A DNA stretch of 64,000 nucleotides from an uncultured Coriobacteriaceae bacterium. GTDB lineage: Bacteria > Actinomycetota > Coriobacteriia > Coriobacteriales > Coriobacteriaceae. The notes below the pieces were generated by a model that saw only the letters and a list, made by a program, of their open reading frames with translations, was not told the DNA's origin and made no database searches. Each line of letters starts with the position of its first letter. Within the stretch, counting starts at the first letter, position 1. The DNA is taken from contig CALUOP010000005.1 in the NCBI GenBank assembly GCA_944322305.1, positions 1-64,000 of the forward strand, given 5' to 3'. A program made the translations under genes and the position numbers. Shown one piece after another: positions 8,757 through 55,880 of this stretch.

Positions 8757-8831
8757 TGGGGTATCGTCCAGTGGTTAGGACCCGGGTTTTTGGTGCCCGT
8801 CACGGGGGTTCGAATCCCTCTACCCCAGCCA
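8757..8831 (+). tRNA. tRNA-Gln (anticodon TTG), CCA encoded
   Basis: Acceptor arms TGGGGTA and TACCCCA pair fully, the D arm is GTCC/GGAC, the anticodon loop TTTTGGT gives TTG, and the T arm is GGGGG-TTCGAAT-CCCTC with one G-T pair. Discriminator G at 8828 is followed by an encoded CCA. The terminal bases of this tRNA from 8811 on are duplicated downstream at 9004. Confidence 0.97.
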
Positions 8832-8875: not shown

Positions 8876-9003
8876 GTTGCGGGCAGGGCAAGGGGGATGC
8901 GAACCCCGCTGGGGGCGCTCGCGCCGGGCAAACGCGGAGCGTTTGCAGCGAACGCGCCCGGGCGCGGAGTGCCCGGGCGGATGCGGATGCCGCAGGCAGA
9001 CGC

Positions 9004-9068
9004 CGAATCCCTCTACCCCAGCCAAAGAAATCAAGGCCCCGCCGTGTAACGCGGCGGGGCCTTTTTGC
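9004..9068 (+). repeat. 65-bp direct repeat, copy 2
   Basis: Perfect second copy of 8811-8875 after a 128-base GC-rich spacer. It carries only the last 18 nucleotides and the CCA of tRNA-Gln plus the terminator, so it is not a functional tRNA. This is the pattern left by recombination into a tRNA 3' end, but no integrase is present. Confidence 0.95.
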
Positions 9069-9097: not shown

Positions 9098-9247
9098 TGG
9101 GCGAAAACTACGCTGGTACGAGAGCGTTGGGAGAAAACTACGCTGATACGAGAGCGTTGGGCTAAAACCCCGCTGATACGAGCCCCTTGGGCGAAAAGTG
9201 CATTCGTACGAAGCGCATGCGCGAGAAGTGCATTCGTACGGACGCGA
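9098..9247 (+). repeat. Array A, left arm: five 30-bp units
   Basis: Units start at 9098, 9128, 9158, 9188 and 9218, exactly 30 bases apart with no gaps. The shared core reads TGGGCGARAA then YGC or YTC and TACGA, followed by a more variable 6-7 bases. The right arm (9341-9580) carries the same unit in the opposite orientation. The region between the tRNA-Gln repeats and the response regulator at 9928 holds no supported gene. Confidence 0.9.
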
Positions 9248-9340
9248 TCTTATCATCTAAGGTTGGCGGGCGTCTTGAATCGGGCGGGCGAACGGTCGGA
9301 AGCCTCATGTTGGCCGCGCAAATGACATCTAAGCGCGAGG

Positions 9341-9580
9341 ACCCTTTCGCATCAGTTGGATTTTCGCCCAAGACTTTCGTATCAGGTGAGTTTTCGCGCA
9401 CGCGCTTCGTATGAGTGCATTTCTCGCCCAAGCGCTTCGTATGAGCGCGGTTATCGCCCAAGCGCTTCGTATGAGTGTACTTCTCGCCCAGAAGCGTCGT
9501 ATGAGTGCGCTTCTCGCCTGCGGAGTTCGTATGGGTAAGGCTTTCGCCCAGGCAATTCGCACGAACGTGATTTTCGCTCT
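9341..9580 (-). repeat. Array A, right arm: eight inverted 30-bp units
   Basis: Units end at 9370, 9400, 9430, 9460, 9490, 9520, 9550 and 9580, exactly 30 bases apart. Core in plus orientation is TTCGTATGAGTGC then TTCTCGCCCA, the reverse complement of the left-arm unit, often including AAGCGCT. A unique 93-base centre (9248-9340) separates the two arms. The remaining bases 9581-9927 show nothing recognisable except a TTGACA at 9836 and GATAAT at 9854 that are too close together for a normal promoter. Confidence 0.9.
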
Positions 9581-21074: not shown

Positions 21075-21095
21075 AGGAATCTCCGTTTCTCCTCT

Positions 21096-21215
21096 CCGGA
21101 CTGTTACCGTCGGCTCTGGAGTTGCACCAGATCCACCGCTTGCGCGGGTTGCGGGCTTCGTCGGCGCCGTTTTGGCGCCACCGTCACCGCCGGTGGGGAA
21201 TTGCACCCCGCCTCG
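21096..21215 (-). promoter_or_regulatory. FMN riboswitch (RFN element)
   Basis: On the minus strand the conserved RFN blocks occur in order: GGCGGGGTGCAATTCCCCAC then CGGCGGT near 21185-21212, AGCCCGC-AA-CCCGCGC near 21145-21156, GGTGGATCTGGTGCAACTCC near 21120-21140, and GAGCCGACGGTAACAGTCC near 21100-21117. It ends about 20 bases before the ribU start codon, next to the ribosome binding site, so control of translation initiation by FMN is likely. Confidence 0.93.
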
Positions 21216-21226
21216 AAACCGCTTCA

Positions 21227-52354: not shown

Positions 52355-52451
52355 CTCGGATCCTCTCTGCCCAACGGGCGAACAGGTGCTTGCGGCGGAT
52401 AATCCCAGCGCTATCGTACGCGCGTTTTGCCGGGTCCGGCTCGGCAGTTCT

Positions 52452-52645
52452 CGCGTACGTGGCGGTTACGCATGCCTTTGCGCGGCTCGCTTCGGACAAG
52501 TAACGGTTACGCATGCCTTTGCGTGGCCGGTGGTCCTGTGATTCTCGCACAAGTGGCGGTTACGCATACTTTTGCAAGGCCCGCTTCACGCAAGTGACGC
52601 TTATGCGTGTCTTTGCGTGAGATTTGATGCGGCATAACCGTTACT
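52452..52645. repeat. Degenerate repeat array, AAGTNACGGTTACGCATGCC family
   Basis: Four direct units sharing GGTTACGCAT-CCTTTGCG lie with GGTTAC anchors at 52464, 52505, 52558 and (GCTTAT) 52599, that is 41, 53 and 41 bases apart. An inverted piece (CATAACCGTTACTT) follows at 52632. Units are about 30 bases with 11 or 23 bases between. The rest of 52355-52907 holds a 13-bp inverted repeat (next entry) and the ligase promoter. Confidence 0.75.
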
Positions 52646-55379: not shown

Positions 55380-55651
55380 TGCGCTGAACATGCGCTCATG
55401 CAAGACTTTCGGGCGAGAATCACACTCATACGAGCATCGTTGCGCGAGAACTGTGCTCATACGAAACTCTTGTGCGAGAAGCTCACTCATACGAAATCCC
55501 TGCGCGAAATGAGCGTTCATGTGCCGTGTTTGGGCGAGAAACGCATCCATACGAAGCCGTTGCGCGAAACGAGCACTCATACGACATCACATGGGCGAGA
55601 AGCGCGCTCGTACGAGTGCCGTGGGCGAAAAGTGTACTCATACGAGCGTGT
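55380..55651 (+). repeat. Array B, left arm: eight to nine 30-bp units
   Basis: Clear units start at 55410, 55441, 55471, 55501, 55531, 55561, 55592 and 55622, spaced 30 bases (31 twice); a decayed one starts at 55380. Core TGSGCGAGAA then CTCATACGA is the same as array A, 46 kb away. The two 31-base steps break any reading frame, arguing against coding. Confidence 0.9.
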
Positions 55652-55700
55652 TTCGTGTCGTACATGTCGTTCGGGCGCCTAATTCCTATGCGTTTGGATT

Positions 55701-55880
55701 GCCGCTGTCGTATGAGTGCACTTCTCGCCCGATCCGTTCGTATGGATGCAATTCTCGCCCAAGGTGCTCGTATCAACGCGCTTCTCGCCCAGGGGGTTTC
55801 GTATCAGCGCACTTTTCGCACGCGTCTGTCGTGTGAGTGCAGCTCTCGCGCCATTCCACCGCATCGACGATTTCTTGCCC
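55701..55880 (-). repeat. Array B, right arm: six inverted 30-bp units
   Basis: Units end at 55730, 55760, 55790, 55820, 55850 and 55880, each 30 bases apart, with TCGTATGAGTGC then TTCTCGCCC, the reverse complement of the left arm. The centre is about 50 bases. From 55881 to the ATPase stop at 56234 I see no gene or clear signal. Confidence 0.9.

Follow-up and report, generated by a model that had tools for sequence, protein, structure and literature searches.

The array family described here resembles the REPIN/RAYT systems in several respects: both consist of dispersed, extragenic, non-coding multicopy elements with two inverted halves (PMC3116915, PMC8049555, PMC2817692), in both a single resident enzyme gene is flanked by the repeat (here in all four species of the genus) and the repeat type is specific to the lineage, and the enzyme gene is inherited vertically within the genus. 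The differences concern the enzyme, which is here a predicted nuclease of the Vsr/DUF559 type (profile matches to DUF559, REase_MTES_1575, 3hrl and 3r3p) instead of a Y1 (HUH) transposase, the halves, each of which is a tandem arm of 2-12 units and which are devoid of compensatory pairing, and the copy number, about 19 as against hundreds. Because it departs from REPIN/RAYT in the two defining tests, enzyme class and hairpin compensation, we do not file the array system under that name; the best reading would be that it works in a similar manner, with another enzyme class and another repeat architecture. The minisatellite MITE BrickBuilt of Porphyromonas gingivalis shares with the arrays a number of about 19 intergenic copies, contiguous short tandem units and a limited host range, but its 23-nt units lie in one orientation between short inverted ends with no facing arms, and its abstract mentions no linked enzyme (PMC4596501). 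The ends of IS21, Mu and Tn7 also carry several bipartite transposase sites, direct within an end and inverted between ends, although the sites are few per end and a DDE transposase lies between them, neither of which was found for the arrays (PMC10122671). In Drosophila, the Foldback and Galileo transposons possess inverted repeats containing tandem subrepeats; these elements are, however, eukaryotic and long, and Galileo has a P-superfamily transposase (PMC3573991). The linked protein itself is comparable to the Vsr/DUF559 (EDxHD) nucleases, including I-Bth0305I (3r3p; PMC12350094), in the sequence and fold of the catalytic domain and in its invariant acidic and histidine residues. In the open-access literature searched, which leaves out most subscription journals, no family member turned up with dispersed head-on arrays of its own, and no described match to the array-nuclease system came up; the position of the gene between two arrays in all four species suggests that the system is an undescribed one.

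Array A is located at 9098-9580 of the window, the whole 64-kb stretch of DNA analysed, in the 2.35-Mb genome (G000) of an uncultured member of the Coriobacteriaceae, akin to the gut bacterium Collinsella, whose named relatives are Coriobacteriaceae, mostly Collinsella and uncultured kin. Its five direct and eight inverted 30-bp units stand head-on, with a period of exactly 30 bp, and the features of the locus are as follows:

8757-8831, plus strand: tRNA-Gln gene, upstream of array A
9098-9241, plus strand: left arm with five direct units of 30 bp each, detected by repeat finder and by position-weight scan
Starts 9101, 9131, 9161, 9191 and 9221, plus strand: 21-bp cores of the left arm (repeat finder, position-weight scan)
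9234-9254, minus strand: weak inverted unit (12.9 bits) paired with the innermost unit of the left arm at an offset of 13 bp; such partners recur at many other loci
9242-9346, no strand: centre, 105 bp separating the innermost cores
9347-9580, minus strand: right arm with eight inverted units of 30 bp each, the cores being at 9347, 9377 ... 9557
Facing units: 126 bp start to start, that is 12.0 turns of 10.5 bp

The number, exact length and facing arrangement of the units given by a first-pass annotation of this DNA were confirmed by the repeat finder and the position-weight scan, and the annotation was correct in placing the array between a tRNA-Gln gene, upstream, and a two-component system, of which a response regulator gene lies downstream. 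It had also described a centre of 93 bases; the centre is present, but the innermost cores are 105 bp apart, the value of 93 depending on where the units are cut. Beside array A, at 8892-9015, the window carries a G+C-rich dispersed repeat (GGGGGCGCTCGCGCCGGGCAAACGCGGAGCG...) of a kind found next to tRNA genes, with many further copies in G001 and G002, and the tRNA-Gln terminator is duplicated around it.

About 19 arrays were counted in G000 from the searched patterns and fetched stretches on which all genome-wide results for G000 are based; all are intergenic and all are head-on, with direct units on the left and inverted units on the right. The unit consists of two conserved boxes, TGGGCGARAA and CRYYSRTACGA, with three weak positions between them; six further weak positions precede the first box as a spacer. 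This two-box pattern has 90 forward and 98 reverse matches in the whole genome, an abundance far beyond chance: when read backwards, the pattern gives no match in either orientation. Arms hold 2-12 units per half and vary widely in length within and between loci, and at many loci an inverted partner, shifted by 13 bp, overlaps the innermost unit on one side of the centre. The window contains a second array of the same kind, array B (55411-55850):

55411-55645, plus strand: left arm of array B, eight direct units, one of them degenerate
55646-55707, no strand: centre of array B, 62 bp; 83 bp start to start, that is 7.9 turns
55708-55850, minus strand: right arm of array B, five inverted units

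Apart from the nuclease gene discussed below, the genes beside the arrays are ordinary and their functions differ from locus to locus. In G000 and G003, a second species of the genus, their orientation is near random (22 codirectional, 7 divergent and 7 convergent pairs); a promoter or terminator role of the arrays was rejected on this lack of bias and because no promoter-like site was found. A CRISPR array was likewise rejected, since the units are contiguous, degenerate and in two facing orientations, whereas the repeats of a CRISPR array are near-identical, all point the same way and are separated by unique spacers of about equal length.

The first-pass annotation had proposed that related genomes be searched for paired arms, for conservation of their position and for a co-occurring protein. 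Arrays are present in all four species of the genus, with differing unit sequences: G003 has about 18 arrays of the G000 unit type, G002 about a dozen (~12) of the unit type GCRARAA-N6-CGATACGG, and G001 about 7 of a different unit, GCGAGAA-N7-GATCCTA, together with a few arrays of the G002 type. As to position, the site after tRNA-Gln that is occupied by array A carries an array in all four species. G000 and G003 have only some of their array sites in common: four further arrays agree in both flanks and a fifth in one. Two arrays coincide with breaks in synteny. At a tRNA-Glu site, an array is found in G000 and G001 and the site is empty in G002 and G003; between G001 and G002 a single block of 534 bp differs there, and the flanking sequence agrees at 75 of 78 bases. 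This one full/empty pair shows no clear target duplication, so insertion and deletion are indistinguishable at the site. The centres are not all unique, as about 8 of the 17 arrays in G003 have homologous ones. A CAGGTAA motif, or a near form, is common to several centres of G000, G003 and G026, the last from another family of the order (e.g. L012, L020, L022, L193), and spans genera whose units are unlike. A search with the conserved-box pattern, from which other unit types would escape, detected arrays in this genus only among 199 relatives, and the exact two-unit pattern had no match in a collection of genome contigs that possibly lacks G000 and very near genomes. No phage, plasmid or viral relatives of the arrays were matched. 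Further out, unlike arrays with 31-bp units are found in Collinsella tanakaei An791 and in G026. Those of An791 are head-on with the core GGTGCACTTTC (L095 7160-7560; L126-L129); one of them also follows a tRNA-Gln gene, and in three the facing distance is exactly 105 bp.

A co-occurring protein was also found: in each of the four species, a gene for a predicted nuclease has a complete array on either side. It was first spotted post hoc among the genes situated between arrays, and G002, G001, G026 and a second paralogue were checked afterwards. In G000 the gene is on contig C7 at about 90807-91877 and its product has 356 residues; the closest homologues of this protein in G003, G002 and G001 likewise have complete arrays on both sides. 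The locus reads rpsI-array-gene-array-nagB in G001 and G002, where rpsI and nagB are names given to the neighbours from their sequences, but has different neighbours in G000 and G003. The C7 protein has no significant Pfam match of its own; members of its family match DUF559 and REase_MTES_1575, and the family profile matches 3hrl (endonuclease-like), the homing endonuclease I-Bth0305I (3r3p) and PvuRts1I. The catalytic domain matches 3r3p in sequence (E 0.0066), and a fold search with the predicted structure (pLDDT 86.6, pTM 0.86) returned 3r3p with a probability of 0.80-0.87 and weak E-values. Among 26 proteins, S206, E209, D254, E265, H272, D281 and R284 are invariant or nearly so, a set that fits the EDxHD pattern. 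The linked protein is thus predicted to be a Vsr/DUF559-type (EDxHD) nuclease, with the catalytic residues and the fold of the family present. Judged by a dN/dS of about 0.2 between G000 and G003, it is under purifying selection. The family gave 3-8 matches in 12 of the 13 genomes searched.

The four nuclease genes form one clade with 100/100 support, the topology of which is that of the species tree. At the nuclease locus of G001 and G002, the flanks are 98% identical on the rpsI side and 89% on the nagB side; the nucleases between them share 54% protein identity with a dS of 1.70, compared with a dS of 0.38 and 97.7% protein identity for a control gene, and the surrounding arrays are built of different units. 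The high dS of the nuclease suggests that the cassette was exchanged, as opposed to having evolved fast in place. This joint difference in nuclease and unit type is the strongest hint that unit and nuclease belong together.

The distances between facing units, measured start to start, range from 32 to 197 bp and have a best period of 10.5 bp (R 0.81 pooled over 42 loci of G000, G003 and G001). By genome, R is 0.80 in G000 (18 loci), 0.83 in G003 (17) and 0.88 at 10.5 bp in G001 (7); with G002 added (53 loci) the best period is 10.45 bp, the signal of G002 alone being weak. The loci are partly related by descent, which makes a test on unique distances safer than the pooled R, and the classes near 135-136 bp may correspond to 105 bp plus one degenerate unit, for which reason the test was repeated on the 24 unique distances: the observed value was reached in 0.02% of jitter trials (p 0.0002). 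Such phasing is expected of proteins meeting face to face on duplex DNA. Together with the bipartite conserved unit, it supports the protein-binding array that the first-pass annotation had listed among its possibilities, and the arrays resemble places at which a DNA-binding protein docks.

We propose, as the moderately probable account, that the arrays are non-coding elements, dispersed in the genome, of a repeat system linked to a nuclease, in which the nuclease would both bind the elements and take part in their copying. Array A would be one copy of such an element, with two facing arms of 30-bp protein-binding units and a helically phased centre. The Vsr/DUF559-type nuclease encoded on C7 is most likely, we infer, the protein that recognises the units, and it would bind the bipartite sequence TGGGCGARAA ... 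CRYYSRTACGA, probably by its N-terminal part. With successive units occupied, each arm would carry a row of bound protein, and the two rows could meet face to face because the facing sites are on one face of the helix. The action of the nuclease at this protein-array complex may then promote the copying of elements, or their replacement, in intergenic regions. The homologous centres in G003 and the 534-bp full/empty pair fit dispersed copies, and the same observations lend support to the selfish repeat that the first-pass annotation had considered. It is also possible, with a probability somewhat below even, that this is a new kind of bacterial intragenomic element, in which the EDxHD nuclease gene sustains and propagates a population of head-on binding-site arrays of its own; upon exchange of the cassette between species, arrays of the new unit type would take the place of the old ones.

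The first-pass annotation had further considered a structural RNA, and a rival account would be that the element functions as one long hairpin, formed by a read-through transcript or by a single strand. A read-through RNA is indeed able to fold, and its computed fold is far stronger than that of shuffled sequences (z -9.85); this strong fold follows from the head-on architecture. At variable positions, however, units of opposite arms agree to 0.386 in the hairpin register and to 0.384 out of register, whereas agreement is highest between adjacent units of the same arm (0.446) and lowest between units of other loci (0.356); the arms therefore lengthen through local duplication, and complementarity between them is not maintained. 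The wide differences in arm length, two terminator-like stems between tRNA-Gln and the array, and the absence of an Rfam match at array A speak against the hairpin as well, and helical phasing is a property of duplex DNA: with no register-specific complementarity, it points to a DNA-bound protein, and the RNA account is extremely improbable. The phasing and the bipartite units require just some binding protein, and could also be read as docking sites for a host DNA-binding protein serving looping, nucleoid organisation or two-sided roadblocks, with the nuclease lying between two of them by history only. Such an architectural role would suit the head-on symmetry and the random orientation of the neighbouring genes. 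It is nevertheless unlikely, given that sites are only partly common to G000 and G003 and that the nuclease is found between arrays at two different genomic places, changing jointly with the unit type.

Decaying miniature transposons of a DDE transposase of the IS21, Mu or Tn7 type, with multiple terminal sites and a lost autonomous element, are a still less likely origin. The ends of such elements hold several direct repeats that are inverted between ends (PMC10122671), and foldback-like elements with subrepeats inside inverted repeats are known in eukaryotes (PMC3573991), but both boxes of the unit stay conserved in all species and the one full/empty pair shows no clear target duplication. 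An origin from IS21 was rejected, as the IS21 copies in G000 and G003 carry different repeats at their ends and no rve-family transposase was matched in G001 and G002. The resemblance of the catalytic domain to the homing endonuclease I-Bth0305I (3r3p) could also suggest an ordinary homing endonuclease that uses the arrays as a landing site, their function being unrelated to it. This is very improbable, since both neighbours of the gene are complete head-on arrays and not the halves of one split array, and since the nuclease clade tracks the species tree.

The nuclease-linked repeat system, which we continue to favour, has further cases and exceptions. A homologue in G026 is 61 bp from a 31-bp head-on array, and the second G000 paralogue (C4:183.4k) has upstream nine direct units, roughly 30 bp long and different in sequence, and downstream a head-on set. 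On both sides of this second paralogue lies a second G000 array family with the unit core TTCTCGACAGGTGCAA (L176 4538-4811 and 6690-7120), which occurs once more elsewhere in the genome (L019 8838-9275). The link between nuclease and array is not universal, as no nuclease homologue was found near the arrays of Collinsella tanakaei An791 and the same detector found no array near about 45 other nuclease paralogues. G001 retains arrays of the G002 type without the matching nuclease between them.

If true, the account would represent a second, independent solution to the REPIN/RAYT arrangement, based on a Vsr-type nuclease and protein-bound duplex DNA instead of hairpins, and would provide a candidate role for a little-annotated nuclease family of Coriobacteriia. 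The paired difference in protein and unit between the sister species G001 and G002 makes the specificity directly testable. Elsewhere in the window, a tandem repeat with a period of 94 bp and 1.8 copies lies at 52448-52619, and an FMN riboswitch is present on the minus strand at 21080-21224 (Rfam RF00050, 88.4 bits).
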